Made by a program: the position numbers and the translations under genes. Under the pieces are notes generated by a model. That model did no database searches and was not told where the DNA came from. It worked only from the letters and a program-made list of their open reading frames with translations. From a virus, in IMG/VR virus record IMGVR_UViG_3300046491_000064, positions 1-40,059 of that record: a DNA stretch of 40,059 nucleotides; one strand, 5' to 3'. This document shows, piece by piece, positions 3,574 through 15,340 of the stretch; the first letter of the stretch is position 1, and every line of letters begins with the position of its first letter.

Positions 3574-3585
3574 TAGATTATTGTT

Positions 3586-3622
3586 CTAGTCTATTGACCT
3601 TCACAGTAGACTAGTGCAAAAT
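3586..3622 (+). promoter_or_regulatory. Class B promoter inside an 8-bp inverted repeat
   Basis: TTGACC at 3594, 17 bases, CAAAAT at 3617. CTAGTCTA (3586-3593) and TAGACTAG (3607-3614) are perfect inverted copies flanking the -35 box. Confidence 0.75.
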
Positions 3623-3654
3623 ACCTATCAGTAACCAACTAGGAACAAAACAAA

Positions 3655-4020: not shown

Positions 4021-4043
4021 CGCTAATCGTCCGATGTTAAACT
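4015..4043 (+). promoter_or_regulatory. probable promoter overlapping the end of the previous gene
   Basis: TTGTAA, 17 bases, TAAACT. A small inverted repeat ATCG/CGAT (4026-4035) lies in the spacer. It serves 4070-4599. Confidence 0.5.
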
Positions 4044-4069
4044 AACCGTATCAACTTTGAGGTAGTGCC

Positions 4070-4330: not shown

Positions 4331-4599
4331 TGAATGGACCAACAGTGTTTGATGAACACGAACTAATCATGGCAACTAAAGTCGCCCGCGTTCGACTACT
4401 TGAACAAGGGTATATCACGACAGCGGTTGCAGAAGCTGGACGCGATAAGTTCGAAACAATGCGACGGCTTGACAAAAACAAGATTGAAGAATTTACTGTC
4501 ATACACTGGCGCTGGCATGATACACTCGGCTGGTTTCCTTTCTTGATTGATGGGAAACGTGTTGCAGGCGACGGGCTGCCATTCATCAAAGAAGATTGA
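4330..4599 (+). CDS. hypothetical protein
   Basis: An 89-residue protein whose ATG overlaps the preceding stop. The N-terminal two thirds are helical and charged (FDEHELIMATKVARVRLLEQGY, VAEAGRDKFETMRRLDKNKIEEF), with a strand-rich end (TVIHWRWHDTLGWFPFLIDGKRV). I recognise no family. It ends the two-gene unit begun at 4070. Confidence 0.75.
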   Translation: MNGPTVFDEHELIMATKVARVRLLEQGYITTAVAEAGRDKFETMRRLDKNKIEEFTVIHWRWHDTLGWFPFLIDGKRVAGDGLPFIKED

Positions 4600-4608
4600 A
4601 AATAAAGC

Positions 4609-4636
4609 TTGCATCAATGGTTGATTGGTGTAAAAT
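4609..4636 (+). promoter_or_regulatory. Class B promoter with spacer inverted repeat
   Basis: TTGCAT, 16 bases, TAAAAT. ATCAA (4613-4617) and TTGAT (4621-4625) form a 5-bp inverted repeat with a 3-base loop. Confidence 0.7.
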
Positions 4637-4684
4637 GAACCACATGAAAGGGCATAAAGCCCAATCGACCAAGGAGTTTTCTAA

Positions 4685-5068
4685 ATGGGTATCTGGAAAC
4701 CAACTCAAGCGGAATGCGACATGATTAAAGGTGCTGCCGCTCGTGCTGCCGGGACCAAGGCTATCAAGCTTGAACCCGGTATCCGTGGCGGTGATTCTGC
4801 CGACAATGTGTCTATGAACATCGCTCGCGTCACTGTCTGCGAAGATTGGTCAGAAGACACTGAGCTAGAAGACTTCGGAACATGGTCTGAATTCCGTAAA
4901 GGTGTTGAACTGACAGAAGATGGTCGGGCAATTGTTGACTTTTATGTACATGACAGGGTAGAGCTTAACACCAATGTTGTCGTCTACTATCAAGGAGGTC
5001 AGATTGTTGAAGTGTGCAACACGTCAGGCACGAACCTTTTGCACAACGGTCTGAACTACATTTTCTAA
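4685..5068 (+). CDS. acidic hypothetical protein
   Basis: A 127-residue protein with AAGGAG before ATG 4685. The N-terminus is helical and Ala-rich (MGIWKPTQAECDMIKGAAARAAGTKAIKLEPG). The middle is acidic (VCEDWSEDTELEDFGTWSEF) and the C-terminus is strand-rich (VVVYYQGGQIVEVCN). No signal or membrane segment is seen, and the family is not recognised. It is alone between two promoters, which is usual in this region. Confidence 0.8.
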   Translation: MGIWKPTQAECDMIKGAAARAAGTKAIKLEPGIRGGDSADNVSMNIARVTVCEDWSEDTELEDFGTWSEFRKGVELTEDGRAIVDFYVHDRVELNTNVVVYYQGGQIVEVCNTSGTNLLHNGLNYIF

Positions 5069-5075
5069 ATAAAGC

Positions 5076-5104
5076 TTGCAGGGGCTGAAAAGCCCCTGTA
5101 CAAT
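5076..5104 (+). promoter_or_regulatory. Class B promoter with a strong hairpin as its spacer
   Basis: TTGCAG, 17 bases, TACAAT. CAGGGGCT (5079-5086), GAAA, AGCCCCTG (5091-5098) is a perfect 8-bp stem with a GNRA loop that fills the space between the boxes. No T run follows, so it is not a standard terminator. Confidence 0.75.
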
Positions 5105-5135
5105 GCACAGACAGACAACGAAAGGAGTTATCTAA

Positions 5136-5225
5136 ATGAATCTTGTAGACTGGTTGGCTATCACTTGTACTGCTTTCATTTTCGTTTTGTTGTTTGTTCA
5201 ATGGCTTGACAAATCCAGCAAATAA
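5136..5225 (+). CDS. single-span membrane peptide, 29 residues
   Basis: ATG 5136 has a good AAAGGAG at 5121-5127. The product has one hydrophobic span (WLAITCTAFIFVLLFVQWL) and a short charged tail (DKSSK), as expected for a small inner-membrane peptide with its C-terminus in the cytoplasm. It begins a four-gene run to 5745. Confidence 0.7.
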   Translation: MNLVDWLAITCTAFIFVLLFVQWLDKSSK

Positions 5226-5234
5226 GGGTTTACC

Positions 5235-5486
5235 ATGATTCTTGCAACTGTTCTAACCTTGTGTGCTTCTGCACTTCCTTGTAACGATTATATCATTGAT
5301 ACTGCAACTAACAGCCGCGATGCATCTATTAACTTAGTTGCCCATAGTCAAGAGTTCAAACGTGTTTGGACTGATGGAAAGTTGCTTAGCGAAACACTGG
5401 CGTTATATAACATTGTTGAAGAAATTACAGAAGTTCAAACTTACGAACTTAACACGCGGTCAATCGATGAGGATGACATGCCATGA
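5235..5486 (+). CDS. small exported or membrane-anchored protein
   Basis: An 83-residue protein with a signal-like N-terminus (MILATVLTLCASALPCNDY) followed by a soluble domain ending in EITEVQTYELNTRSIDEDDMP. The hydrophobic start and the two Cys suggest export or membrane anchoring, but there is no clear lipobox. A similar small signal-bearing protein occurs in other phages by my recollection. Coupled to 5483 by ATGA. Confidence 0.75.
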   Translation: MILATVLTLCASALPCNDYIIDTATNSRDASINLVAHSQEFKRVWTDGKLLSETLALYNIVEEITEVQTYELNTRSIDEDDMP

Positions 5487-5671
5487 CATTTGTTATTTAC
5501 TATTACCGTGAACATCGTTGCTGGTATGGTTACTGGGCAACTAACGAAGGTGACCAACTTTGCGACTGTTTAACCGATATCAATAAGGAACAACTTCTTA
5601 TCCAACTAGGTCAGATAAAGGATGCAACTAAGGCAAAGTATCAAAGGATGCTAGATGAGGGTAACAAATGA
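5483..5671 (+). CDS. hypothetical protein
   Basis: A 62-residue protein that starts within the ATGA at the end of the previous gene. The first half is aromatic and strand-like (MTFVIYYYREHRCWYGYWATNEG), the second a charged helix (KEQLLIQLGQIKDATKAKYQRMLDEG). This reads like a one-domain small protein of unknown role. Coupled in turn to 5668. Confidence 0.75.
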   Translation: MTFVIYYYREHRCWYGYWATNEGDQLCDCLTDINKEQLLIQLGQIKDATKAKYQRMLDEGNK

Positions 5672-5745
5672 GCCACGGGGGAATGACAGACGAACAACGA
5701 GAAGAAATGAAAAAGCGGTATTTAGAAGACACGAAAGCCCCTTAA
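5668..5745 (+). CDS. possible 25-residue peptide
   Basis: ATGA overlap with the upstream stop and an ORF of 25 codons (MSHGGMTDEQREEMKKRYLED...). The coding end lies inside the terminator stem. Support is only the coupling and the helix-like composition. Confidence 0.4.
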   Translation: MSHGGMTDEQREEMKKRYLEDTKAP

Positions 5746-5760
5746 ATGGGGCTTTCTTTT
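5734..5760 (+). terminator. Rho-independent terminator, AAGCCCC-TTAAAT-GGGGCTT type
   Basis: AAAGCCCC, loop TTAAAT, GGGGCTTT then CTTTTG. Near-identical stems occur at 7045 and 8149. Confidence 0.9.
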
Positions 5761-5769
5761 GCCTGTCGT

Positions 5770-5880
5770 TTGTGCTACAATCAATCCATGATGTGGCGGG
5801 GTTGCGAACCCGGAGATAAACAGGGAGGGTGGACGTTAGTCTGTAAATGAGAAAGATTGTCGTCAAATTGCGTGCCAACT
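5770..5880 (+). other. untranslated segment with extended -10 and hairpin
   Basis: TGCTACAAT at 5773-5781 is an extended -10 element without a clear -35. A transcript from about 5788 would start with the stem GGGTT-GCG-AACCC (5799-5811). A leaderless 20-codon ORF (MMWRGCEPGDKQGGW...) is possible but has no ribosome binding site. I see no recognised RNA family. Confidence 0.35.
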
Positions 5881-5907
5881 ATTTCTTAAAATAATTGAAA
5901 ATAAGTG

Positions 5908-5935
5908 TTGACCGCTTTTCTAAATGGCGTAGAAT
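5908..5935 (+). promoter_or_regulatory. Class A sigma70 promoter
   Basis: TTGACC, 16-base spacer GCTTTTCTAAATGGCG, TAGAAT, with TTGAAAATAAG upstream. Drives 5981-6289. Confidence 0.85.
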
Positions 5936-5980
5936 GAACACATCAGAAGGCAAACAGCCTTAACCAACGAGGAAATGAAC

Positions 5981-6289
5981 ATGAAAACTCTGAACATCAC
6001 TACCGGCAACTTTGACCAACTGAACACCTTTCAAGTGAATGCCGGTAAACGTGTGATGAAATGTTCTCTGATGCTTGACTATGAAAAAGTTGGTGATGGT
6101 GTTCTGTGGGCAATGTCCAGCGGTTCAACCCTTAAAGCGTCCTACACTGATGCAGACCGTGCCGAATCTGAACGCCTTGCATCTGAAACCCCGCTGGAAA
6201 ATGGCGAACTTGTTACTATCAATGGCGAGCAATACAAAGTTCGTGTACTTGGTGCTTTCAGTGATACTGCGATTTTCGATAAAGTTTAA
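5981..6289 (+). CDS. hypothetical protein
   Basis: A 102-residue protein. ATG 5981 is preferred over ATG 5975 because GAGGAA at 5969-5974 abuts the earlier codon. The sequence starts MKTLNITTGNFDQLNTFQVNAG and continues through strand-rich segments (GDGVLWAMSSGSTLKASYTD) to a C-terminal motif ELVTINGEQYKVRVLGAFSDTAIF, which looks like a beta-barrel or SH3-like half. No family is recognised. Confidence 0.8.
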   Translation: MKTLNITTGNFDQLNTFQVNAGKRVMKCSLMLDYEKVGDGVLWAMSSGSTLKASYTDADRAESERLASETPLENGELVTINGEQYKVRVLGAFSDTAIFDKV

Positions 6290-6303
6290 AACTTTTCTAA
6301 ATC

Positions 6304-6337
6304 AGGGGTTGCAAACAGTGTGACCCCTTGATAGAAT
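6304..6337 (+). promoter_or_regulatory. Class B promoter in an inverted repeat
   Basis: TTGCAA at 6309, 17 bases, TAGAAT at 6332. AGGGGT (6304-6309) and ACCCCT (6323-6328) are inverted copies. A CTTTTCTAAATC word also sits just upstream at 6293, so this promoter mixes both styles. Confidence 0.7.
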
Positions 6338-6369
6338 ACTTCCACACACACTGAACAAGGTACAAAGTC

Positions 6370-6582
6370 ATGAAAGGTTTTAGCATCGCACTCGTAATTG
6401 TTTGTCTTGGATACATTGCTGGTGTTAGCGCAAGCCTTGTAACTGATCACCTCGACAACGTTGCACGCAAAGAAGCTCATGCTGCCTATGATCTGAAAAT
6501 GCATAACCTGAGCGTCAAGATGTGTGCAGAAGGCAAAGGCGGTGCTTTCATTTATGACGGCAAACGTTGCAAACAAAACTGA
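6370..6582 (+). CDS. small membrane-anchored protein
   Basis: A 70-residue protein with one N-terminal membrane span or signal anchor (MKGFSIALVIVCLGYIAGVSASLV), followed by a basic soluble part ending CAEGKGGAFIYDGKRCKQN. The two Cys near the end could form a disulfide if the domain is periplasmic. AAGG lies upstream. The next gene's ribosome binding site starts at its stop, so the two are in one transcript. Confidence 0.8.
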   Translation: MKGFSIALVIVCLGYIAGVSASLVTDHLDNVARKEAHAAYDLKMHNLSVKMCAEGKGGAFIYDGKRCKQN

Positions 6583-6589
6583 GGTTGAC

Positions 6590-6745
6590 ATGTATAGATT
6601 GTTTCGGTTTGTAATGTTGGGTGTGTGGGACATGCCACCAAAGCATAAACACCACTGGATCGTTATTCGTGAAGGTCGGACAACTTATGGTCCTGTTGTT
6701 GTGCTTCAATGCGACGGGTGTGGAGACTGTAAAATAGTTGAATAA
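6590..6745 (+). CDS. small zinc-ribbon-like phage protein
   Basis: A 51-residue protein starting at ATG 6590 with GAGG at 6581-6584; an in-frame start at 6524 lies inside the previous gene. The core HHWIVIREGRTTYGPVVVLQCDGCGDCKIVE resembles the single-ribbon phage proteins that end in a 'C..CG' knuckle. Here the Cys pattern is CDGCGDC, with His residues upstream as possible co-ligands. The function is unknown. Confidence 0.75.
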   Translation: MYRLFRFVMLGVWDMPPKHKHHWIVIREGRTTYGPVVVLQCDGCGDCKIVE

Positions 6746-6750
6746 AAAGC

Positions 6751-6778
6751 TTGCACCCTTCTCTAAATGCTGTAGAAT
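6751..6778 (+). promoter_or_regulatory. Class A sigma70 promoter
   Basis: TTGCAC, 16-base spacer CCTTCTCTAAATGCTG, TAGAAT. Drives 6813-7028. Confidence 0.82.
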
Positions 6779-6812
6779 GACCTTAACGAAACGAACAACG
6801 GAGCAAGACGAA

Positions 6813-7028
6813 ATGACTAACCAAGAATTCAACCAAGCAATCGAAGCGGTAATGGCTACCTACGCCAAACACGCCAACGTTGCAAAGGTTCTGGCTTCTG
6901 GCGTCCATAGCGCAAATTGCTTCGAAGACCTTTGCGAAATTGCTACCTACAACTGCGTTGAGTTTGGGGATACCGCCGAGTGCGTTGAATGCTTCGAAAA
7001 CACTCTTGAAGCAATGTTGACAGCCTAA
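6813..7028 (+). CDS. hypothetical protein
   Basis: A 71-residue, Cys-bearing helical protein (MTNQEFNQAIEAVMATYAKHANVAKVL...FEDLCEIATYNCVEFGDTAECVECFENTLEAMLTA). An in-frame ATG at 6738 lies upstream of the promoter boxes, so ATG 6813, with GGAG at 6800-6803, is used. Four Cys sit in the C-terminal half, but their spacing is not a known finger. A terminator-like hairpin follows. Confidence 0.8.
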   Translation: MTNQEFNQAIEAVMATYAKHANVAKVLASGVHSANCFEDLCEIATYNCVEFGDTAECVECFENTLEAMLTA

Positions 7029-7044
7029 CCAGCCCGCCCACCTC

Positions 7045-7066
7045 AAGCCCCTTAATTGGGGCTTTG
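7045..7066 (+). terminator. terminator-like hairpin, GCCCC type
   Basis: AAGCCCC, loop TTAATT, GGGGCTT, but only a three-T tail. Same stem as 5734 and 8149, so probably a functional though weaker terminator. Confidence 0.65.
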
Positions 7067-7093
7067 CCAGTAAAACAAACAGGTTGACAAAAC

Positions 7094-7336
7094 ATGAAAA
7101 AGATACAGACATTCAGCAATGAAAACCTTGATCATAACCGGGTTGCCCGTATCTTCCAAACTATGCCACAAGCGGGCATGGAAGCCCTACACGTTCCGAC
7201 CTTTGAAGTTAGCACACATTCAGGCGGTGTTGCTGTAGAGTGGGAATTCCAAAGCTTTCAGCTGTTAGAAGATGCACAGCAATACGCAATTCAATTCATT
7301 ATGCCGCAAGGTATGATTGCGAAAATAGTTTCATAA
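7094..7336 (+). CDS. hypothetical protein, paralogue of 2562-2804
   Basis: An 80-residue protein. Residues 38-80 match the C-terminal half of the protein at 2562 (shared STH-GG, EW-F--F, DAQ-YA-QF--PQ, KIV). The N-terminal half (MKKIQTFSNENLDHNRVARIFQT) is different. AGG at 7081-7083 followed by TTGACA lies upstream of the start. No promoter was identified immediately before it, so it may depend on read-through past the weak hairpin at 7045. Confidence 0.8.
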   Translation: MKKIQTFSNENLDHNRVARIFQTMPQAGMEALHVPTFEVSTHSGGVAVEWEFQSFQLLEDAQQYAIQFIMPQGMIAKIVS

Positions 7337-7341
7337 ACAGG

Positions 7342-7370
7342 TTGCTTGGAGTGTTCTGCACTGGTAGAAT
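7342..7370 (+). promoter_or_regulatory. sigma70 promoter
   Basis: TTGCTT, 17 bases, TAGAAT. The spacer has only a weak 4-bp inverted repeat AGTG/CACT (7350-7362). Confidence 0.65.
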
Positions 7371-7402
7371 GCTCCTACACCAACCTAATCAGGTATTGCA
7401 AA

Positions 7403-7540
7403 ATGTCCAAGGTCATGATCGTAAATCTCTTGCCTAAAAACTACAAACAAAAACCAATTGTCATGACTTGGGAAGAATATCTAGAATTCTGCAAGGTGAC
7501 GAAGGGTGAGGGTGTAACTTGGAAAGCTGTCTTGACCTAA
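7403..7540 (+). CDS. hypothetical 45-residue protein
   Basis: An ATG at 7346 overlaps the promoter, so ATG 7403 is used; AGG at 7391-7393 is its likely ribosome binding site. Product: MSKVMIVNLLPKNYKQKPIVM, then TWEEYLEFCKVTKGEGVTWKAVL. It looks like a strand followed by a helix. Family unknown. Confidence 0.65.
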   Translation: MSKVMIVNLLPKNYKQKPIVMTWEEYLEFCKVTKGEGVTWKAVLT

Positions 7541-7548
7541 AATAGTTG

Positions 7549-7577
7549 TTGCATCAGGTGTTGATAGTTGATACAAT
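7549..7577 (+). promoter_or_regulatory. sigma70 promoter
   Basis: TTGCAT, 17 bases, TACAAT. A weak inverted repeat ATCA/TGAT (7553-7565) is present in the spacer. Confidence 0.65.
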
Positions 7578-7610
7578 GCTGTCACACCCACACGATAACG
7601 AGTAAAGATC

Positions 7611-7805
7611 ATGACCAACACCACTCAGAAGCAAGCCAAACGTTCAATCAAAGTGAATGCCTATGGCAACTGGGTTGGCTATGTTGGTCGTGTACGCTCT
7701 GAAGAGTTTGGCGATGACGTTGACACTGCCGAGATATGGGTAAAGACTGACCTCAATTTCTTTGAATCTCGCGATGCAGCTTTGGCTGAAAAATGGTCTA
7801 AATAA
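7611..7805 (+). CDS. hypothetical protein
   Basis: A 64-residue protein (MTNTTQKQAKRSIKVNAYGNWVGYVGRVRSEEFGDDVDTAEIWVKTDLNFFESRDAALAEKW). The basic N-terminus and the YGNWVGYVGRVR strand pair suggest a small OB- or SH3-like barrel. The ribosome binding site is poor (GAGTAAAG). It is alone between promoters. Confidence 0.72.
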   Translation: MTNTTQKQAKRSIKVNAYGNWVGYVGRVRSEEFGDDVDTAEIWVKTDLNFFESRDAALAEKWSK

Positions 7806-7809
7806 AAGC

Positions 7810-7838
7810 TTGCAGCGGGTGAAAGACCGCTGTACAAT
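7810..7838 (+). promoter_or_regulatory. Class B promoter with spacer hairpin
   Basis: TTGCAG, 17 bases, TACAAT. CAGCGG (7813-7818) and CCGCTG (7827-7832) pair around GTGAAAGA. The layout parallels the promoter at 5076. Confidence 0.75.
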
Positions 7839-7873
7839 ACCTGCATACCCCACCCGAACAAGGTAGCTAGAAA

Positions 7874-8134
7874 ATGCCAACTCTCTTTAAAGAAACCATC
7901 GCCAAAAACACCGTTGAAATGTCTGTCTGCGATTGTGAGATTTTCGTCTTTCATTACAAGGGCGAGAATGACTATAAGGTCTGGAAATACGAACAAACAT
8001 CAGATGGTATGCATCTGGCTTTGAATGCGTATGAAAGCGTTATCACTGAACTTCTTGCACTTGAGTCAGCAAAGGCAGACGAAGAAGAAGGTTTGTATGA
8101 TGATGGGTATGAATTCCCCGCCGAAGAAGAATAA
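7874..8134 (+). CDS. acidic hypothetical protein
   Basis: An 86-residue protein with AAGG upstream. A strand-rich N-terminus (KETIAKNTVEMSVCDCEIFVFHYKGENDYKVWKY) leads into a helix and a strongly acidic tail (KADEEEGLYDDGYEFPAEEE), comparable to the tail of the protein at 1067. A role as a small inhibitor of a nucleic-acid-binding host protein is conceivable but unsupported. A terminator follows. Confidence 0.8.
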   Translation: MPTLFKETIAKNTVEMSVCDCEIFVFHYKGENDYKVWKYEQTSDGMHLALNAYESVITELLALESAKADEEEGLYDDGYEFPAEEE

Positions 8135-8148
8135 CCTAATGATTGAAT

Positions 8149-8175
8149 AAGCCCCTTAAATGGGGCTTTTCTTTG
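8149..8175 (+). terminator. Rho-independent terminator, GCCCC type
   Basis: AAGCCCC, TTAAAT, GGGGCTT and TTTCTTT. Same stem and loop as 5734. Confidence 0.9.
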
Positions 8176-8188
8176 TCTGCGATTTGTG

Positions 8189-8440
8189 TATAATGCATCA
8201 ACACGGTAATGAACTGCCGTTCACGGTGTGAGGTCAGGCACGAGACAAACACGCAACCTGCCTGTTGTTTAGAGTTGGCATGATAATAGCATAGTAAAAT
8301 AGTTTTAAAGTTGGCACGCTTATTGGTACGCTGTTTTAAGACAAAAGACATACCAGCATCAGGGGTGCGACTAAACGTTGCTGAAATCGCGTTATAGGAG
8401 CTTTGAGCGGGTCTTAAACTTTTCTAATAATTCTCTAAAT
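8189..8440 (+). ncRNA. candidate untranslated RNA in a 250-base gap
   Basis: TATAAT at 8189-8194, preceded by TG, lies just after the terminator and would start RNA near 8201. From that point ACAC (8201-8204) and GTGT (8226-8229) enclose the stem TGAAC-TGCC-GTTCA (8210-8223). CAGGC (8235-8239) can pair with GCCTG (8260-8264), or AGGT with ACCT as a competing fold. Two TTGGCA words (8275, 8311) follow. No ORF with a ribosome binding site is present. The family is unknown and expression unproven. Confidence 0.35.
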
Positions 8441-8445
8441 AATTG

Positions 8446-8473
8446 TTGACTACTTTTCTAAATCAGGTAGAAT
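8446..8473 (+). promoter_or_regulatory. Class A sigma70 promoter
   Basis: TTGACT, 16-base spacer ACTTTTCTAAATCAGG, TAGAAT. An extra pair of TTTCTAA / TCTCTAA words lies just upstream (8420-8440). Confidence 0.83.
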
Positions 8474-8513
8474 GAACCCATCGAAAGCAAACAAGCTTAA
8501 AGGAATCAGCAAA

Positions 8514-8732
8514 ATGGCAACTCAAAAAGAAATCTTCGAATACGCTTACAAAGCTGGTTCCTTGGGTGTCTACAAAGCAAACCCTTTCAACAAACAAACT
8601 CAACCTAAATCATTCGCTACCTTTGTGGCTGGTATCAAAGCTGGTACGGCTGAGAAAGTCACACTGAATGACAGTGTTGAAATCTGCACTGCACGCCGTG
8701 AAGCTGCTTTCGAATTGTTCATGAAAGCCTAA
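8514..8732 (+). CDS. hypothetical protein
   Basis: A 72-residue basic protein from ATG 8514, with AAAGGA at 8499-8504; the in-frame ATG at 8472 lies on the -10 box. The sequence (MATQKEIFEYAYKAGSLGVYKANPF...SFATFVAGIKAGTAEKVTLNDSVEICTARREAAFELFMKA) is probably an all-helical domain. No family assigned. The next promoter starts 9 bases after the stop. Confidence 0.8.
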   Translation: MATQKEIFEYAYKAGSLGVYKANPFNKQTQPKSFATFVAGIKAGTAEKVTLNDSVEICTARREAAFELFMKA

Positions 8733-8740
8733 ATAAACAC

Positions 8741-8769
8741 TTGCAATGAGGGTATTGCTTTGATAGAAT
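8741..8769 (+). promoter_or_regulatory. Class B promoter with spacer inverted repeat
   Basis: TTGCAA, 17 bases, TAGAAT. GCAAT (8743-8747) and ATTGC (8754-8758) are inverted copies. Confidence 0.72.
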
Positions 8770-8796
8770 ACCCACACACTCAAAGGAGTAAAGAAC

Positions 8797-8961
8797 ATGA
8801 TTAAACTTTGCCCATGCTGTAATACCCCTTTCACAAGCGGGACCGGTTATGAGGCTGATGTCTACAGCGACGGTCAAGCGCTTGAATATTGCTCTGCCGA
8901 ATGTGCAGAACACGCATCCGATGAACATCAAGAATACCTCGACAGCTATGATGTCGATTGA
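8797..8961 (+). CDS. small zinc-finger (treble-clef-like) protein
   Basis: A 54-residue protein with AAAGGAG before ATG 8797. It opens MIKLCPCCNTPF and later has YCSAEC, so two Cys pairs (C5/C8 and C32/C36) about 25 residues apart fit a one-zinc treble-clef or TRASH/MYM-like knuckle. The C-terminus is acidic (EHASDEHQEYLDSYDVD). Such mini-proteins usually bind nucleic acid or a protein partner. The partner here is unknown. Confidence 0.78.
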   Translation: MIKLCPCCNTPFTSGTGYEADVYSDGQALEYCSAECAEHASDEHQEYLDSYDVD

Positions 8962-8970
8962 AAATAAAGC

Positions 8971-8998
8971 TTGTAACCTTCTCTAAATGAGGTACAAT
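8971..8998 (+). promoter_or_regulatory. Class A sigma70 promoter
   Basis: TTGTAA, 16-base spacer CCTTCTCTAAATGAGG, TACAAT, with GAAAATAAAGC upstream. Drives 9053-9277. Confidence 0.78.
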
Positions 8999-9052
8999 GC
9001 TAAACAAGGAAAGGGCGAATAGGTCGCCCAATCCACACAAAGGAACTTTGGA

Positions 9053-9277
9053 ATGATCGATATCACGACAGCAACAAAACTTGGCGAGATTCTGGAAACT
9101 GCCGCAAATGAATATCGAATCCGAATGGATTGCCAGTTTCAATACGATTCGTTTGCTGATGCTGTCGGTCGTGAATTCTGGTTAGCCTTTGGAAAGCATG
9201 AGCAATCATCGCTCATGCAAGAAGTGTATTCTTTGCTTTGTGACATGGGTTTCACTCCGCTTGAAACCTTGAAGTAA
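9053..9277 (+). CDS. hypothetical protein
   Basis: A 74-residue helical protein (MIDITTATKLGEILETAANEYRIRMDCQFQYDSFADAVGREFWLAFGKHEQSSLMQEVYSLLCDMGF). AAAGGA at 9040 is the ribosome binding site. No recognised domain. It is the last rightward gene before the large gene-free region, and a terminator follows within 10 bases. Confidence 0.78.
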   Translation: MIDITTATKLGEILETAANEYRIRMDCQFQYDSFADAVGREFWLAFGKHEQSSLMQEVYSLLCDMGFTPLETLK

Positions 9278-9283: not shown

Positions 9284-9312
9284 AAGCCCCTCACAGAAGA
9301 GGCTTTTCTTTA
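9284..9312 (+). terminator. imperfect Rho-independent terminator
   Basis: AAGCCCCTC and GAGGCTT pair with a two-base bulge around ACAGAA, then TTTCTTTA. Ends the rightward early block. Confidence 0.75.
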
Positions 9313-9389
9313 TGTCGCAATTATGTACGAATGTCGCAATTCTATAAAATCAGTTGACAGCATGTCGCTATTCTGTATCTTTATGTCCC
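9312..9389 (+). repeat. ATGTCGC repeat cluster
   Basis: ATGTCGC occurs at 9312, 9331 and 9362 and as ATGTCCC at 9383, all in one orientation, with the extended forms ATGTCGCAATT (twice) and ATGTCGCTATT. A further copy lies at 9952. These may be binding sites for a phage protein. The reverse complement GCGACAT resembles the half-site of the repeats at 30052. Confidence 0.6.
9354..9381 (+). promoter_or_regulatory. possible promoter into the hairpin region
   Basis: TTGACA, 16 bases, TATCTT. It would transcribe rightward into 9400-10089. It overlaps an ATGTCGC copy, so it could be repressed by a protein bound there. Confidence 0.45.
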
Positions 9390-9399
9390 AAAAGGGTAT

Positions 9400-10089
9400 A
9401 GTCAGAACTGACTGTTTCACGATAAAATGCTCTTATCTTCGGGGGCTGCCCCCGGACGTGATAGAGAGAGGTGGGACAAGCCCACCAAAGTATTAGAAAG
9501 AATGTATATTATGTACGTAGTACATAGTAATAAGGTGTTACTATGCTGTAGCATAGAATAACATAGGAAAGAGAGGGGAGTAAACCCCCCTCCTACTACC
9601 TTCTATAATGCACTGTCGTGAACGACAGAATAACAGACTCTACATCAGATCAATTACAGGGGAAGCATCCCCTGATCCTATCCTAGCTCTGTACAAGGTA
9701 CAGAATAGCTATCATGTCTGTCTTTGTATAAGACACCATCCTATAGGCATAGCCTATGTAATACCCTCATTTAATCAAACTCTTATATTACGTGGCTTTG
9801 AGCCACAAGGTATAACCATTTCACCTCATTTATGAGGTAATAAGCCTATTCTGGTATATGTGAATACTCGTCGAAGAATGAGACATTTCTGTCTATTGGC
9901 TAAGCATCCCTTTCTCATTATGTCAATAGTATCCTGTCGAACAGACAGTAAATGTCGCATTTATGTACATTTCATATGCATTATCGAATCCTATTGAGTG
10001 GATCATTCTAATAGGAAAGATATATTGTACAATCGTTGATCATCAGCGTATGCTGATCAGTGTGGTGTGTATGCCTGTGCAATGCAGGC
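9400..10089. other. dense array of about 17 distinct short hairpins, no gene
   Basis: Perfect inverted repeats of 5-7 bp with short loops follow one another: AGTCA/TGACT 9400, GGGGG/CCCCC 9441, GGTGGG/CCCACC 9470, TATGTAC/GTACATA 9510, CTATGC/GCATAG 9541, GAGGGG/CCCCTC 9573, CTGTCG/CGACAG 9613, CAGGGG/CCCCTG 9657, CTGTAC/GTACAG 9689, TGTCTT/AAGACA 9719, ATAGGC/GCCTAT 9743, GTGGCT/AGCCAC 9792, ACCTCA/TGAGGT 9823, AGACA/TGTCT 9881, CTGTC/GACAG 9934, TCCTATT/AATAGGA 9989, ATCAGC/GCTGAT 10042, GCCTG/CAGGC 10073. Stems share no sequence. No ORF with a ribosome binding site covers the region. Either a large structured RNA or a DNA-structure element. Confidence 0.6.
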
Positions 10090-10398
10090 GGTAAGCAATC
10101 AACGTGCCATGTTCAATCCCCAATCAAATGTAGTCTGACCCTAGTGAGGGAGGGCATATTGCTCTACGCATAACTGTTATTATGTTAAATCGGCAGGTAT
10201 AGTAATTGCATTAGCAAAGAGTGTGCCAATTCAGCTATATGATGATAGTGGTTGACAGAATGACATGAGTATGATTTGAATCTGGACCGATAGCCTGTCT
10301 CTACGGATTTTGAGATTCTTATAGACCCCCTCTATTCGTCCAAGTCCGGGGCGTTAAACCCACTAGAAATACCGCTGGTAGATTCGGGAAGATAAGTG
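10090..10398. other. gene-free stretch with little structure
   Basis: Continues the untranslated region. Only weak stems are visible (CCCT/AGGG at 10139, CATAA/TTATG at 10169). A TTGACA at 10252 has no matching -10. I see no gene. Confidence 0.5.
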
Positions 10399-10490: not shown

Positions 10491-10512
10491 AAGCCCCTAC
10501 AGAGAGGGGCTA
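10491..10512 (-). terminator. terminator of the leftward operon
   Basis: On the minus strand AGCCCCT, CTCTGT, AGGGGCT is followed by TTTTTCATTTTC. The stem overlaps the 3' end of the last gene. It could also stop rightward transcripts, though the T run on that side is weak. Confidence 0.85.
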
Positions 10513-10649
10513 GTTTGTGCATCTAGTTCTTTTAACTTCAGTCGAATCCAGTCAATTCGTTCTTGTCCTGTCATTCCTTTTCTTGGAAATGAAATGGTGC
10601 CACTGTTGATTGACTTAGTGATCTTGTCCATGTCGAAATTGAAAGTCAT
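10497..10649 (-). CDS. hypothetical 50-residue protein
   Basis: ATG at 10649 overlaps the upstream stop as ATGA. The sequence is amphipathic and helical (MTFNFDMDKITKSINSG, then MTGQERIDWIRLKLKELDAQ). No family recognised. It is the final gene of the leftward operon and its last codons lie in the terminator stem. Confidence 0.65.
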   Translation of the reverse strand: MTFNFDMDKITKSINSGTISFPRKGMTGQERIDWIRLKLKELDAQTSPSL

Positions 10650-10888
10650 GATAGTGCTGATTTTGGAATGTCATTGAGTTGTTCGGGGAATGTTCCTCCT
10701 TGGTCTTCTAGCCATTCGTTGTCTACTTCGTATTGAGTTACTGATTCGATGTAATGATATGTGATTAGCTCTATCCAGTCTGAATTAGAAAGGCTATGTT
10801 TCTCTGTCCAGAGTTGACCATCGAGGTATAGGCCGATCCAGTCGCAATCGGTTGATGTACAGAGTGTAACATTCTTATGCACTACCAT
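10646..10888 (-). CDS. hypothetical protein
   Basis: An 80-residue protein (MVVHKNVTLCTSTDCDWIGLYLDGQLWTEKHSLSNSDWIELITYHYIESVTQYEVDNEWLEDQG). A strand pair around WIGLYLDGQLW and an acidic C-terminus are visible. It overlaps its upstream neighbour by 14 bases and its downstream one by ATGA. The motif 'W.GLY..G.L' recalls small phage proteins of unknown function. Confidence 0.72.
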   Translation of the reverse strand: MVVHKNVTLCTSTDCDWIGLYLDGQLWTEKHSLSNSDWIELITYHYIESVTQYEVDNEWLEDQGGTFPEQLNDIPKSALS

Positions 10889-11195
10889 TGTCTTCTCCTT
10901 TTGGTTTATCGATTGTTCCGTAGAGTCTCATGTTCTCAAGCATTTGATGAGCGTCATCGATAGCTGATTGATAGTCGTCGTAATCTTCTAGCGGTGTAAT
11001 CTCTGACCATTCGATGTAGAAGATGTCGTACATTTTGCTTGGGTATGCACGGTAATCTTTCACTCGTGTCCAGTCTACTTCATAGTCGTTATCTTTGAAG
11101 ACTGTTGGTAGTCCAAGCATTCGAAGGTGTGTCATTGGTGACAGGTTTGAGCCTACCATTTCTAATGCTGATATTGATATGCTACGTCTGGTCAT
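10875..11195 (-). CDS. hypothetical protein
   Basis: A 106-residue protein. The ATG at 11195 has GGATGG upstream with normal spacing, while an ATG at 11204 abuts AAGG, so 11195 is preferred. The N-terminus is basic (MTRRSISISALEMVGSNLSPM) and the centre aromatic and acidic (YRAYPSKMYDIFYIEWSEITPLEDYDDYQSAIDDAHQML). No domain recognised. It overlaps the CYTH gene by 4 bases. Confidence 0.72.
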   Translation of the reverse strand: MTRRSISISALEMVGSNLSPMTHLRMLGLPTVFKDNDYEVDWTRVKDYRAYPSKMYDIFYIEWSEITPLEDYDDYQSAIDDAHQMLENMRLYGTIDKPKGEDNGSA

Positions 11196-11662
11196 TCTTT
11201 CCATCCTTTGTACGGATTGTTGATCAGGTAGGAGTTGTAGTAACGGACATCGCCTGTCACTTCCTTGCCTACGAATGGTGGCTTACTCACCTTTTGGTCT
11301 TCATCTCTGAGTTCGATTTCAGCGAGTATCAATCCTTCGTTGTCACCATGGAATTCGTCTACTTCCCAATACTCTTCGTCGTACATGATAAGGTATCGGG
11401 TCTTTTCGATCACGCCTACGCAGAGTGCTAGTAATTCTTCGGCTTCATCAACCTCAATGTCTTTTTCCCATTCATACCGGGATAGTCCGTCATCAGATGA
11501 AATGCCTTTGACTGTGATGAAAGCTAAGTTGCCATGAATACGCACACGAACAGTTCGTTCGGGGTCAATGCTTAGATACCCTTGTTTAATCTCTTTCGCT
11601 TCAATGTATGGTGTTGACAGCGTGCTAGCATCAACTAGGTACTTTCTTTCAATTTCGATCAT
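11192..11662 (-). CDS. CYTH-domain triphosphate tunnel enzyme
   Basis: A 156-residue, single-domain CYTH protein. The frame extends to 11857, but ATG 11662 has GGAG and places the family hallmark at the N-terminus: E3-I-E5-R-K7 (ExExK). Further conserved positions are R39/R41 on the second strand, K52-G, E64/E66 (RYEWEKD), K87-R89 (EKTRY), WEVDEF at 99-104 and AEIEL at 114-118. Length suits bacterial CYTH triphosphatases, which hydrolyse inorganic triphosphate, thiamine triphosphate or nucleoside triphosphates with divalent metal in an eight-strand tunnel. Class IV adenylyl cyclase is a less likely alternative. Substrate here is unknown. Confidence 0.9.
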   Translation of the reverse strand: MIEIERKYLVDASTLSTPYIEAKEIKQGYLSIDPERTVRVRIHGNLAFITVKGISSDDGLSRYEWEKDIEVDEAEELLALCVGVIEKTRYLIMYDEEYWEVDEFHGDNEGLILAEIELRDEDQKVSKPPFVGKEVTGDVRYYNSYLINNPYKGWKE

Positions 11663-11739
11663 AGTTTGTTCTCCAGTGCTTTGATTATCAGGTATGTGAA
11701 TACACAGACAGCGAACAGTATGGCCCAAATCACTTCCAT
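11659..11739 (-). CDS. single-span membrane peptide, 26 residues
   Basis: ATG at 11739 has GGAG six bases upstream and ends in an ATGA overlap with the CYTH gene. The peptide (MEVIWAILFAVCVFTYLIIKALENKL) is one transmembrane span with a basic end. The coupling suggests joint expression with the CYTH enzyme. Confidence 0.62.
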   Translation of the reverse strand: MEVIWAILFAVCVFTYLIIKALENKL

Positions 11740-11975
11740 ACATTTCTCCAAGGTTGCCGACAGATAATAAAGTCTGTCCAGTGTGAGTATCCGCCCACAC
11801 CGGTTCCGTTGTAATACTCTGCCCACATGTAAGCGTAGTTGAGGTCATCTTCTTCAATGCAGTGTACGCAGCTTACCATGTAGTTTGATGCATTCTCTAC
11901 AAAGCTTGTATTGCGGTGTCTGGATTTGATTGGACCTACACGTTTACGAAGGCAGCAAGGACATTGTTTTCTCAT
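11730..11975 (-). CDS. Cys-rich zinc-ribbon-like protein
   Basis: An 81-residue protein beginning MRKQCPCCLRKRVGPIKSRH and later VSCVHCIEEDD, giving two Cys pairs about 30 residues apart (C5/C8 and C36/C39), as in small one-zinc ribbons. The rest is aromatic (YAYMWAEYYNGTGVGGYSHWTDF), resembling many phage proteins in which a ribbon precedes 'A...WN....' patterns. Nucleic-acid or protein binding is likely. Role unknown. Confidence 0.75.
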   Translation of the reverse strand: MRKQCPCCLRKRVGPIKSRHRNTSFVENASNYMVSCVHCIEEDDLNYAYMWAEYYNGTGVGGYSHWTDFIICRQPWRNVWK

Positions 11976-12226
11976 CGTCTAACAACCTTGCCTGTGAATG
12001 TGTAATAGCGTTCTTCATCCTTTACGCTATCGATCATATAACGTTTAGTGCAGTCTAGGCATTTCACGTTGATCCAGAATTCACGATTAGTGAAACAGTC
12101 ACTGTCACTGCTTTCATATTCACCTTCAGTTTTATGGTGGGGGCATTTGCTTTGAAGGTGTTGCAGTTCAGATACGAGTCTGTTCTGCATGTCTGTGATT
12201 CTTTTTACTTTCTCACGAATAGTCAT
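11972..12226 (-). CDS. zinc-ribbon-like protein with coiled N-terminus
   Basis: An 84-residue protein. A GTG at 12235 overlaps the upstream stop and is an alternative start; ATG 12226 is preferred but the case is close. A helical start (MTIREKVKRITDMQNRLVSELQHLQSK) leads to CPHH and, 25 residues on, CLDC, a CxxH/CxxC zinc site. The end is basic (GKVVRR). No function known. Confidence 0.72.
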   Translation of the reverse strand: MTIREKVKRITDMQNRLVSELQHLQSKCPHHKTEGEYESSDSDCFTNREFWINVKCLDCTKRYMIDSVKDEERYYTFTGKVVRR

Positions 12227-12231
12227 AGTGC

Positions 12232-12462
12232 TCACCAGACAAACCTCGAACCGGGTAGAAGTACAAACCCGCTGTATTCAGGGTAATTGGTATCGATGTA
12301 TTCACGTAGTTCTTGCTCATCCCACATTGATGGAATGCTGAATGTTGTCTCGTATGCGTCTATGCGTCCTCCATAGATTTCAACATTCGATTCTGATTCG
12401 TGACAGCAGCCGTCGCCACATGCTTCGAATGTAAAGTATTCGTATCGGATTGAGTAGTTCAT
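12232..12462 (-). CDS. hypothetical protein
   Basis: A 76-residue acidic protein with GGAG before the start. It opens MNYSIRYEYFTFEACGDGCCHESESNVEIYGG and ends DEQELREYIDTNYPEYSGFVLLPGSRFVW. The CGDGCC cluster near residue 15 could bind a metal with the following His. Family not recognised. It overlaps both neighbours by a few bases. Confidence 0.75.
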   Translation of the reverse strand: MNYSIRYEYFTFEACGDGCCHESESNVEIYGGRIDAYETTFSIPSMWDEQELREYIDTNYPEYSGFVLLPGSRFVW

Positions 12463-12647
12463 TTGTTCTCCTTGGCTTGCTGTAGTGCATGTTCTAGCAC
12501 TTCAATTGCATTAGGCCAACTACCATCAAGCACAGCCTGATTGTAACCAGCATCTATACTATCGTTCATGTACCTATCAATGAAGTCATGAGACACTTCA
12601 CGTTCACGCAAGTGACGTAGATCGTCACACATTTGACACTTACACAT
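12459..12647 (-). CDS. small Cys-pair protein
   Basis: A 62-residue protein. The frame is open to 12806, but ATG 12647 has a strong GGAGG and avoids a 150-base overlap with the next gene. It opens MCKCQMCDDLRHLREREVSHDFIDRYMNDS and is then helical. C2/C4/C7 could coordinate a metal. No family recognised. Confidence 0.78.
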   Translation of the reverse strand: MCKCQMCDDLRHLREREVSHDFIDRYMNDSIDAGYNQAVLDGSWPNAIEVLEHALQQAKENK

Positions 12648-12657
12648 TTTAGCCTCC

Positions 12658-13044
12658 TTATTCAAATTCGTCTTGAAGTGCGATATCGATCCACTCACGA
12701 AGTTCACCGACATCAGAACCCCAAATATTGCGAGTGTGAAAACCGATTGACATGAAGCAACCATTGTCAGCAAGCCAGATGCAGATACGATGACCAGTTG
12801 GTTCAAATGTTAACCCGTATGGTGAACGAATTCTTGTGATGAGGTACATACACTGATCAACTGTCAGTGGTTCGTTGCTTACAACAGACTGTGCTTCGAC
12901 ACCGCACATCCCAAAACTGCGATGGTATGGGCTACTTTCAGGAAATGGTGCTACATGCCATACTACAGTGTCAGCATATTCGAAACGAGGTGACCCCGGA
13001 AGGGATTTGTTGTCTTTGCTGATGTTGATTTGTGTCCGTTTCAT
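12658..13044 (-). CDS. hypothetical protein
   Basis: A 128-residue protein with GGAGGGG upstream. Segments include VVWHVAPFPESSPYHRSFGMCGVEAQ, LTVDQCMYLITRIRSPYGLTF and HRICIWLADNGCFMSIGFHTRNIW. It appears to be a mixed alpha/beta domain. Catalytic motifs are not apparent. Coupled to the upstream 54-residue gene by ATGA. Confidence 0.78.
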   Translation of the reverse strand: MKRTQINISKDNKSLPGSPRFEYADTVVWHVAPFPESSPYHRSFGMCGVEAQSVVSNEPLTVDQCMYLITRIRSPYGLTFEPTGHRICIWLADNGCFMSIGFHTRNIWGSDVGELREWIDIALQDEFE

Positions 13045-13205
13045 TTCCCCTCCGCGATGAGTTTACGTTCGACTTGTTTAATCAATTGCCAACTGGTATT
13101 TAGGTAAGCTTCTCTGCTTTCGATTGTCCACAGATAGTTCCGTGAGTTAGCCGTTGATAATAGCAGGTCGGTCAGCATTGTCAAGTATTCGCGATGAACG
13201 ATCAT
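13041..13205 (-). CDS. hypothetical 54-residue protein
   Basis: ATG at 13205 has AAGGAG eight bases upstream and the stop overlaps the next start (ATGA). The product is an amphipathic helix bundle-like sequence (MIVHREYLTMLTDLLLSTANSRNYLWTIES, YLNTSWQLIKQVERKLIAEG). Function unknown. Confidence 0.75.
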   Translation of the reverse strand: MIVHREYLTMLTDLLLSTANSRNYLWTIESREAYLNTSWQLIKQVERKLIAEGK

Positions 13206-13215
13206 TTTGTTCTCC

Positions 13216-13401
13216 TTATGCTAATTGAATTGCGATACCCCAAAGGGTAAGGCTACCGATGCTAAACAGAAGTGCGATCAATTCCCACCTGTCTCTCCAA
13301 AGGTTTGTATATCGATGGTCGGCTACATTCATTGCAATCAGTGAGACGGCAAAGAATAAAAAGCCAATCAACCACAGCATGTCTGCCAGCGTTCCATTCA
13401 T
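13216..13401 (-). CDS. two-span membrane protein
   Basis: A 61-residue protein with two hydrophobic spans (LWLIGFLFFAVSLIAMNV and LIALLFSIGSLTLWGIAIQL) joined by a basic loop (ADHRYTNLWRDRWE), so the loop is probably cytoplasmic. AAGGAA precedes the start. A small inner-membrane protein; a role in superinfection exclusion or lysis control is possible but not shown. Confidence 0.75.
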   Translation of the reverse strand: MNGTLADMLWLIGFLFFAVSLIAMNVADHRYTNLWRDRWELIALLFSIGSLTLWGIAIQLA

Positions 13402-13412
13402 TTTTGTTTTCC

Positions 13413-13628
13413 TTATGTGTAAAATAGTATTTTTGGTTTAGGTGTTTGTTCTTTCTCTTCCCGTATACGAGCTTCTTCAGCTAGAAGATTCCGAAAGTAG
13501 GAATCACAGTCATCAAGACTGTATCGTTCTGCAAGGTGTTCCCAAAATAGAAATGCACGTCTTTGATAAATGCGATATACCTTGTCATTTGGTGAATAAT
13601 GGTATTCTACAACCTTAAATCGATTCAT
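13413..13628 (-). CDS. hypothetical protein
   Basis: A 71-residue protein. ATG 13628 has GGAG six bases away, whereas the ATG at 13649 lacks one. It reads MNRFKVVEYHYSPNDKVYRIYQRRAFLFWEHLAERYSLDDCDSYFRNLLAEEARIREE. The pattern 'KV..Y.....D..Y.IY.RR.F.FW..L' is familiar from small proteins of several myophages, without known function. It overlaps the GIY-YIG-like gene by 14 bases. Confidence 0.78.
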   Translation of the reverse strand: MNRFKVVEYHYSPNDKVYRIYQRRAFLFWEHLAERYSLDDCDSYFRNLLAEEARIREEKEQTPKPKILFYT

Positions 13629-13935
13629 ATCGTCTCCTAATTGATCCATCGTTGTTGCATTGTGTCAGTTCATAGCCCGCATACTCAATATCGGGTATTG
13701 AGATGTGTGTAAACCATTCACCTTGTACTCTACGCCTACTGAACAGAGAATGCAAGCCTTTTTCTACATCAATTGCACGGGCGTCTGTCGTTTGCCAGCA
13801 ACGAATGATCTTAATGTGCGTACCAGATGCCAATTCGAGTTGACGCTGGCGTTTTACTGGGTTGATAGCGATTCCAATCTTGTTCAGCTGGTGGTCATTC
13901 TCCATCAGGTATAGTCTTTGATTTTCTCTTACCAT
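13615..13935 (-). CDS. T5orf172/MUG113-type GIY-YIG-like protein
   Basis: A 106-residue protein. The block LYLMENDHQLNKIGIAINPVKRQRQLE followed by EKGLHSLFSRRRVQGEWF is the pattern of the MUG113/T5orf172 branch of the GIY-YIG fold: a first strand with Y, K-I-G after about 8 residues, R-x-R-Q, E (EK) and final GEWF. In this branch the family may be a nuclease or a nucleic-acid-binding relic. Start is ATG 13935 with AAGGCG upstream. Confidence 0.8.
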   Translation of the reverse strand: MVRENQRLYLMENDHQLNKIGIAINPVKRQRQLELASGTHIKIIRCWQTTDARAIDVEKGLHSLFSRRRVQGEWFTHISIPDIEYAGYELTQCNNDGSIRRRYESI

Positions 13936-14186
13936 CTGTACGCCTTATTGCTCTGACCATCCATATAACCATCGTGATAGGCTTGCAGAATTTCCATTCT
14001 CGATTTATCAATGGCTTCGAAATGTTTCTGAATTAGCTGGTTGACTTGAGTCTGAGTGTATTTCTTCTCTCCCCTGACTAGGTGGTTATCCCGAACAGTT
14101 GGTGTATAATAATCGTCATCTCGTTGCCCTCCCATACCGCCGTATAGGTCAGGTTCTGAGTCATCCATTGAATATGGTACGTGCAT
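13929..14186 (-). CDS. hypothetical protein
   Basis: An 85-residue protein preceded by AGGAG. The first third is acidic and Gly/Tyr-rich (MDDSEPDLYGGMGGQRDDDYYTP), then helical (YTQTQVNQLIQKHFEAIDKSRMEILQAYHDGYMDGQ). Possibly a linker plus helix-turn-helix-like segment. No family recognised. It starts just after a hairpin at 14209. Confidence 0.7.
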   Translation of the reverse strand: MHVPYSMDDSEPDLYGGMGGQRDDDYYTPTVRDNHLVRGEKKYTQTQVNQLIQKHFEAIDKSRMEILQAYHDGYMDGQSNKAYRW

Positions 14187-14208
14187 TTCATTCTCCTAGA
14201 ATTGGTAA

Positions 14209-14228
14209 AACCCTCAATTAAGAGGGTT
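14209..14228 (-). terminator. attenuator or weak terminator hairpin
   Basis: On the minus strand AACCCTC, TTAATT, GAGGGTT then TTACC. A short T run only, and no promoter was found after it, so downstream genes probably need read-through. Confidence 0.55.
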
Positions 14229-14408
14229 CTTTAGTAGTGCGGTCAGGGTATCGATTGTTGACTGATACAGCTTTCGCTCACGATCAAATGCATCTTCAAT
14301 CTGTGTGATCGTGCTCTCATGCGATTGCCAATGTACGTAATCACCAGTGAGTGACTTGTAACCATAAAGGTTTTCAAGCGTACCACTTGTGCAATAGAAC
14401 TTACTCAT
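14214..14408 (-). CDS. hypothetical protein
   Basis: A 64-residue protein. The frame is open to 14459, but that part overlaps the 59-residue gene upstream; ATG 14408 or 14411 lies 6-9 bases after GAGGA. It reads MSKFYCTSGTLENLYGYKSLTGDYVHWQS and then a helix (ESTITQIEDAFDRERKLYQSTIDTLTALL). Its stop lies within the hairpin at 14209. Confidence 0.68.
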   Translation of the reverse strand: MSKFYCTSGTLENLYGYKSLTGDYVHWQSHESTITQIEDAFDRERKLYQSTIDTLTALLKNPLN

Positions 14409-14580
14409 CATCAATGTCCTCATCGTTGTAAAGTCGAACGACATCATCACCGCCACCATATGTCATGCTTGATACGCCGAACCAACCAATGGCATCGGGG
14501 CAAAAGATTTGCACACATTGGTCTTCGCCACACATGATAGCGATTGATTCCAGTTTGTTGATCAGTTTACGAATGTTCAT
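14401..14580 (-). CDS. hypothetical 59-residue protein
   Basis: ATG at 14580 overlaps the stop of the PD-(D/E)XK nuclease gene as ATGA. Product: MNIRKLINKLESIAIMCGEDQ, then QIFCPDAIGWFGVSSMTYGGGDDVVRLYNDED. A helix followed by a strand-rich part; acidic end. Family unknown. Confidence 0.7.
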   Translation of the reverse strand: MNIRKLINKLESIAIMCGEDQCVQIFCPDAIGWFGVSSMTYGGGDDVVRLYNDEDIDDE

Positions 14581-15056
14581 TTGGGCATTCCCTCATATAC
14601 TTGGTCAAGATGACCTCTGATTTCCATCCTGCGTAGTGCAGAATACATGTAAGCAGTTTCATTCACCTTACTTCCACTAAATGGAGCATCGAATACCCAC
14701 TGAGTGTTTCTAGGCCAACCCGTTGTTTTGTTCACTCTTCCCTTTTCACTGACTTCGAGTAAACCCCAACCGGTTGGAAGTTCGCTTACAGTGATTAATC
14801 CACGAGGAACCATCATAAATCGCCAGTCACCCATACCCATTGTTGGGTCTTTCCTGAATCGCTTCTTACGATCAGCTAGGAAGTCTGCACGGCTTGTCTT
14901 ACATTCAATCAAACAAGATGTACCATTCCTGAATCCCATTGCGTCAGGCTGTTCACCAGATGGTGTAAGAGCACGAAACTTATCATGAAAGGCAACACCG
15001 AAGCCATTCCGCTTCAAGAAACGATAGCCGATATCACAAAGTTCATCGTGCGTCAT
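14577..15056 (-). CDS. PD-(D/E)XK nuclease-like protein
   Basis: A 159-residue protein. The ATG at 15056 forms an ATGA overlap with the upstream gene and is preferred to a TTG at 15062. P37-D38 followed by E51-C-K53 (PDAMGFRNG...CLIECKTSRADFLADRKKRFR) is the PD-x(n)-ExK active site of the restriction-endonuclease superfamily, as in VRR-NUC, resolvase-like and phage single-strand annealing-associated nucleases. It probably acts in phage DNA processing or recombination. Exact subfamily not identified. Confidence 0.82.
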   Translation of the reverse strand: MTHDELCDIGYRFLKRNGFGVAFHDKFRALTPSGEQPDAMGFRNGTSCLIECKTSRADFLADRKKRFRKDPTMGMGDWRFMMVPRGLITVSELPTGWGLLEVSEKGRVNKTTGWPRNTQWVFDAPFSGSKVNETAYMYSALRRMEIRGHLDQVYEGMPK

Positions 15057-15340
15057 GGGCAACAGAACTCATTCTTACCACAGTATGAATAATCCCGATT
15101 AAACTCAGACAAGTCACATGGTAGATCATAGTATTCTTGGCAGCTTCGGCATTTTACGTACACAGAACCTCTACTATCCGAAACTACCTGATCCATTTCT
15201 TCAATCTTTTGCTGTAGGTCTCTCACTTGCTTGCTCTCTTGGAACAAAGATGATGCCAAACCTGACACCAACATCTCTACATCGCCATTCGATAACCGAA
15301 AGCCTTCGAATAGTGCGTTAATATACTGTTGCTCGTTCAT
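15053..15340 (-). CDS. hypothetical protein with C-terminal zinc-ribbon
   Basis: A 95-residue protein with GGGAG upstream. The first 60 residues are helical with a coiled-coil tendency (ASSLFQESKQVRDLQQKIEEMDQVVSD). The end has CRSC, C, C and CC (from YVKCRSCQEYYDLPC to YCGKNEFCC), consistent with a zinc ribbon. Lies between the TOPRIM protein and a nuclease, so a replication-related role is plausible. Confidence 0.75.
   Translation of the reverse strand: MNEQQYINALFEGFRLSNGDVEMLVSGLASSLFQESKQVRDLQQKIEEMDQVVSDSRGSVYVKCRSCQEYYDLPCDLSEFNRDYSYCGKNEFCCP

Follow-up and report, generated by a model that had tools for sequence, protein, structure and literature searches.

A conserved array of distinct short hairpins beside a predicted terminal repeat in a large Pseudomonas-type phage genome

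The window analyzed here, a stretch of 40,059 nucleotides, covers the first 40 kb of a virus record of 105,735 bp, which represents a large Pseudomonas-type phage genome. It contains two convergent blocks of very small ORFs (439-9277 and 10648-17900), likely early genes of no known function, and, upstream of the terminase gene, twelve tRNA genes (32010-33657). The last rightward gene ends at 9277 and the leftward genes start at about 10522, leaving a gene-free span from about 9278 to about 10500. The first-pass annotation had been right that the region is free of genes, and had set its extent too small. Terminator-like hairpins close both sides of the span. On the left, a plus-strand hairpin with a T-rich tail (9284..9312) follows the last rightward gene; it was recognized from the sequence and from relatives (the terminator scanner lists this hairpin on the minus strand only), and in most relatives its place is occupied by AGCCCC..GGGGCTTTT-like hairpins. 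On the right, a minus-strand hairpin found by the terminator scan (10492..10511) belongs to the leftward genes and would shield the junction from that side. As had been noted before, only one sizeable ORF occurs in the region (9608-9835, 75 aa), and it had no Pfam match; a DNA similarity search of the region against annotated phages also gave no match.

Positions 9400-10089 of this span are crowded with short inverted repeats. A scripted scan for perfect stems with loops of 3-8 nucleotides found 18 stems of at least 5 bp and 13 of at least 6 bp, compared with means of 3.9 (maximum 9) and 1.1 (maximum 6), respectively, in 300 dinucleotide-preserving shuffles. The 17-18 near-perfect inverted repeats originally reported are therefore far above what shuffled sequence of the same composition contains, and each was confirmed to have its own sequence, with no stem sequence common to the array. 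Other 690-bp tiles of the window averaged 1.5 stems of at least 6 bp. The array held 12 stems per 600 bp, versus at most four anywhere in the other 65 kb of the genome, and the stem scan revealed no second comparable cluster in the 105.7 kb. Folding z-scores of the region against shuffles were -7.1 for the plus strand and -8.0 for the minus strand. The typical hairpin has a perfect stem of 6-8 bp and mostly a loop of 3-4 nt; 3-nt loops make up 51% of array loops, compared with 21% in shuffles. Hairpin density falls toward about 10089, where the hairpins end.

The individual hairpins were located by the stem scan, and their orthologs in the relatives described below by alignment. CGGGGG-ctg-CCCCCG (9440..9454) stands at the position of the first orthologous hairpin and is followed by GGTGGG-acaag-CCCACC (9470..9486), the ortholog of GTGGGG-ataaa-CCCCAC in relatives. 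The segment at 9523..9545 can fold as CATAGTAA-taaggtg-TTACTATG or, alternatively, as TATGTAC-gta-GTACATA or CTATGC-tgta-GCATAG. Next are GAGGGG..CCCCTC (9573..9592), which the terminator scan also detected on the minus strand, and CTGTCG-tgaa-CGACAG (9613..9628). The minus strand of the former, G-rich hairpin (9572-9593) and of its orthologs continues CTCTTTCC, and because this form is terminator-like and conserved, a leftward transcript might end there. CAGGGGA-agca-TCCCCTG (9657..9674), the ortholog of AACAGGG..CCCTGTT, is followed by TCTGTAC-aag-GTACAGA (9688..9704), TGTCTT-tgtat-AAGACA (9719..9735), ATAGGC-ata-GCCTAT (9743..9757), GTGGCT-ttg-AGCCAC (9792..9806; ortholog of ATGGCT-tac(a)-AGCCAT) and ACCTCA-ttta-TGAGGT (9823..9838). 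Further hairpins at 9934-9948, 9949-9963, 10042-10057 and 10073-10089 fall within the repeat predicted below. The array is flanked (9312-9400, 9950-9970) by several copies of a ATGTCGCAATT/ATGTCGCTATT-like repeat that have TATGTA or TCTGTA close by, and similar words precede the arrays of two relatives, G007 and G010.

Relatives were found through a terminase search, which yielded 23 IMG/VR loci. The nearest annotated relatives, judged by structural genes, are Pseudomonas phages SYP (70% DNA identity) and phiPMW (67%). In both of these phages and in 11 uncultured records, the syntenic convergent junction, about 25 kb before the terminase gene, carries a single hairpin hotspot with 9-15 stems per 600 bp. 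The arrays have 8-17 stems each, compared with means of 0.7-1.7 in shuffles made array by array. No array was found in the available stretches of G001, G012 and G015; the G001 and G015 records probably begin or end at the junction. A more distant phage, Ounavirinae phage M1, has a weak version of the array together with the element ATTATGTTAAAT, which in the window lies inside the predicted repeat (10179..10190, plus strand) and is conserved in most relatives. A second plus-strand element, CGGATTTTGAGATTCT (10304..10319), is common to the window, phiPMW and SYP. Felixounavirus SP116 has a gene-free convergent region of 1.7 kb at the syntenic place (15719-17406), which was rejected as a counterpart of the array since its repeats are of the TTGTTAA type and are not hairpins.

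Across the nine closest arrays, hairpins can be matched one by one as orthologs in a conserved order, often with an identical loop and a stem altered on both sides. One such set is CACCCGT-agta-ACGGGTG, CGCCGGT-agct-ACCGGCG and CTGTGGT-agta-ACCACAG; another is ATGTGC-ata-GCACAT, ATGGGC-ata-GCCCAT, CTATGC-ata-GCATAG and, in the window, ATAGGC-ata-GCCTAT. We aligned six helices from seven phages on the basis of sequence alone. Paired cells made up 91.5% of this alignment, compared with 35-49% (maximum 49.4%) when it was slid by 1-3 columns. Changes on both sides were present in 14 of the 38 pairs, and 28 cells carried such changes versus 9.3 +/- 2.3 in shuffles. The comparison with relatives that the first-pass annotation had called for thus reveals a conserved array whose stems stay paired through two-sided changes, and we consider it nearly certain that the array is real and conserved. 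A Nankokuvirus alignment was uninformative as to compensatory changes because its stems are nearly invariant.

The position of the array relative to the genome end was assessed from terminus motifs. Both ends of the SYP record carry a 351-bp repeat, which in the orientation of the window starts at GGCTA|AGCCTG and finishes at GGGGCTATT|AAGCC; the record was assembled from Illumina data, and an assembly effect could account for part of this end repeat. End motifs are shared by the repeats of SYP, Pakpunavirus and Nankokuvirus, with A|AGC on the left (SYP GGCTA|AGCC, K8 GTTA|AGCG, Ab03 TTCA|AGCC, Adele |AGCG) and GTT|AA or TATT|AA on the right (SYP as above, Ab03 GGGTCTTGTT|AAATACCCC, K8 and Adele TTCGTGGTT|AAGTAGC). 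The annotated terminal repeats of K8 and Ab03 measure 1188 and 771 bp, and that of Adele, mapped with PhageTerm, 1165 bp (PMC12846349). In the window, motifs of these types occur on the plus strand at a fitting spacing, GGCTA|AGC at 9898..9905 (predicted cut 9902|9903) and GGGGCGTT|AAACCC at 10348..10361 (predicted cut 10355|10356), and we therefore predict a direct terminal repeat of 453 bp (9903..10355) adjoining the array. The motif pair predicts repeats of 404-446 bp in eight other relatives and of 496 bp in phiK7A1; phiPsa374, which shares the host pathovar of phiK7A1, has a published repeat of 526 bp (PMC9796965). In the divergent relatives G002, G008, G009 and G010 the pair was not found in this form. 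A scan of viral contigs with the right-end motif gave eight matches, four of which were contigs of this clade and three of which were chance matches without an array. Judged by these motifs, the phage probably has a linear genome that carries a direct terminal repeat of about 453 bp, and the array very probably lies at the physical end beside it, where we infer that a repeat of the SYP type forms the true end of this phage.

Hairpin-rich ends with the same A|AGC and TT|AA motifs are also present in Pakpunavirus (K8, Adele) and Nankokuvirus (Ab03, PAK_P3), which are Vandenendeviridae-type Pseudomonas phages. The K8 repeat, as in the window, is at a convergent junction. The Pakpunavirus and Nankokuvirus repeats are longer, however, at 0.77-1.19 kb; an HNH gene is annotated inside the repeat in PAK_P4, with a counterpart in K8; and the Nankokuvirus stems are unlike those of the window, being GC-rich and partly repeated. 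In Nankokuvirus RP9, inverted copies of TCTATTCGGTCGCCATAATAA flank the array at about 11052 and 11817.

The first-pass annotation had offered two options for the hairpins: that they belong to a large RNA of a new kind, or that they are a DNA element serving replication or packaging. Under the first, the region would be a non-coding RNA gene in which a host sigma-70 promoter gives rise to an RNA starting near the first hairpin and folding as a hairpin chain, which could, for instance, act as a decoy for nucleases or RNA-binding proteins. An RNA function is possible because a sigma-70-like promoter faces the array and a Pakpunavirus repeat carries an antisense RNA. The promoter, which lies after the upstream terminator and directly before the first hairpin with a spacer of exactly 18 bp, scores 10-12/12 in G006, G014, SYP, G005, G013, G004, G010 and G007, and is the top-scoring site in most close relatives. 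In G006, G014 and SYP it reads TTGACA-18-TATAAT and aligns with the candidate of the window, TAGTCA-18-TAAAAT (9399..9428, plus strand), a weak site whose 9/12 score is at chance level in the window and which is supported by the relatives; no such promoter was found in G002 and G003. The antisense RNA is PAK_P4as17, a minus-strand ncRNA annotated on the basis of RNA-seq over the repeat region of PAK_P4 (67500-68700). Within the PAK_P4 stretch analyzed, at 2501-3701, it covers the HNH gene and those flanks that lie inside the terminal repeat of K8 and Adele. In PAK_P3, on the other hand, the only untranscribed predicted gene is the one at the predicted terminus (PMC4933390); it is in the gap 62817-63739, overlapping the hairpin-rich terminus region.

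The covariation of the stems would fit a selected RNA as well, but such a structure is expected to have G-U pairs commonly on one strand. We counted 185 perfect stems in 15 arrays (12.4 kb). Single-mismatch stems in those arrays were only slightly above chance expectation, at 14 with G-T (6.6 expected), 12 with A-C (7.7) and 32 with other mismatches (29.7). Of the 510 cells of the aligned stems, 8 were G-T and 21 A-C, and many of these lay in misaligned helices or at the outer ends of stems, whereas the tRNA stems of these and related phages held 51 G-U and 6 A-C among 660. Wobble pairs are thus rare in the array stems and have no strand bias, a test that rests on few mismatches, and for this reason DNA is favored over RNA. 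Intrinsic terminators were tried as a further wobble control and were noisy and uninformative. The 51% share of triloops likewise favors DNA as the working form, and none of the common loops listed is a GNRA or UNCG tetraloop.

Searches for known RNAs agreed with this. The region matched neither the GOLLD nor the ROOL covariance model of Rfam; those RNAs are similarly long, structured, non-coding and found in phages, but they have a compact multi-domain fold where the window has a simple chain of hairpins. No credible Rfam family was found in the region at gathering or permissive thresholds. The PrrB/RsmZ (Rsm/Csr) sponge RNAs were rejected at 18.4 bits versus a gathering threshold of 44, and an Rsm-type decoy is not indicated because GGA occurs in only 6 of 142 hairpin loops on either strand. 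Hairpin promoters of the N4 type were also rejected, as each stem of the array is different and the array is not followed by a gene. The earlier argument that distinct stems speak against binding by one sequence-specific protein still stands. Overall, the RNA option survives mainly through the promoter facing the array in most close relatives, and we regard it as unlikely, although it is the strongest of the alternatives.

The nearest described counterpart of the array is the injection stop signal of phage T5, which has been described as rich in inverted repeats and palindromes (PMC13250531). With the same script, the T5 stop region (AY543070 9140-10149) gave 8 perfect stems per 600 bp. Both are gene-free convergent junctions at a terminal repeat with dense, perfect short hairpins, those of T5 having loops of 3-7 nt, and end-region hairpins that halt or pause DNA transfer into the cell could be envisaged here as well. 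However, the T5 repeat is 10.2 kb long and contains genes, with the signal deep inside, 9-10 kb in and after the pre-early genes, whereas the predicted repeat of the window is about 0.45 kb, most hairpins are just outside it, and no pre-early-type gene block separates the array from the predicted terminus. No orthology of individual hairpins to those of T5 was seen. The T5 function is not simply transferable because the position relative to the genome end differs: with the array no more than about 1 kb from an end, a stop would keep every gene out if this end entered first, or would follow nearly everything if it entered last, and we consider this role improbable. Less probable still is that the hairpins are a mutational by-product, in which template switching at a paused fork or terminus makes perfect inverted repeats of no selected function; repeat correction of this kind would also leave perfect stems with almost no wobbles or single mismatches, but it does not account for hairpins that keep their order, and often their loops, between phages sharing only about 70% identity in structural genes, for an order fixed relative to the promoter and terminus motifs, or for the similar stem numbers (8-17) in every array.

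The DNA option fits best with an array that adjoins the predicted repeat, changes on both sides of its stems and has few wobbles on either strand. Since relatives keep the hairpin order beside the predicted physical end, we hypothesize, with a probability of roughly 0.58, that the array acts in cis at the concatemer junction and serves to make or package genome ends. Location, order, covariation and shared terminus motifs can be read in the genomes themselves; that the array probably acts as DNA, and the exact step in end formation or packaging that it would serve, we infer from them. The array would occupy the right end of the chromosome, filling the last roughly 460 bp before the predicted repeat and part of the repeat, and the shared feature would be the ability of each short segment to fold, not the stem sequence. 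Unwinding of the junction by transcription, strand displacement or end resection would expose single-stranded DNA in which the hairpins fold; these may help in forming, duplicating or protecting the terminal repeat, or in guiding the terminase. In T7, a promoter near the right end fires toward the terminal repeat, and fold-back hairpins have been proposed in duplication of the repeat at the concatemer junction. By analogy, a DNA mechanism here could include transcription across the junction as one of its steps, although T7 uses a phage promoter and one palindrome in place of an array.

No account of the array turned up in literature searches, and it seems to be undescribed so far. We tentatively suggest, with less confidence than in its role at genome ends, that such arrays make up an undescribed class of viral end element akin to the T5 injection stop region. 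An element of this class would have as many as about 17 DNA hairpins in a row next to the terminal repeat, each conserved individually and all set by pairing and order, not by sequence, and would occur across several groups of large Pseudomonas phages. Ends are rarely annotated in this group, and the motif pair A|AGC and TT|AA offers a prediction of them from sequence alone. Should the array work as RNA, it would add a new type to the non-coding RNAs of phages. To our knowledge, repeat duplication and the recognition of genome ends in phages with direct terminal repeats are largely unsolved outside a few models, and a conserved, easily mutated array at the ends of well-studied Pseudomonas phages would provide a concrete handle on end formation.
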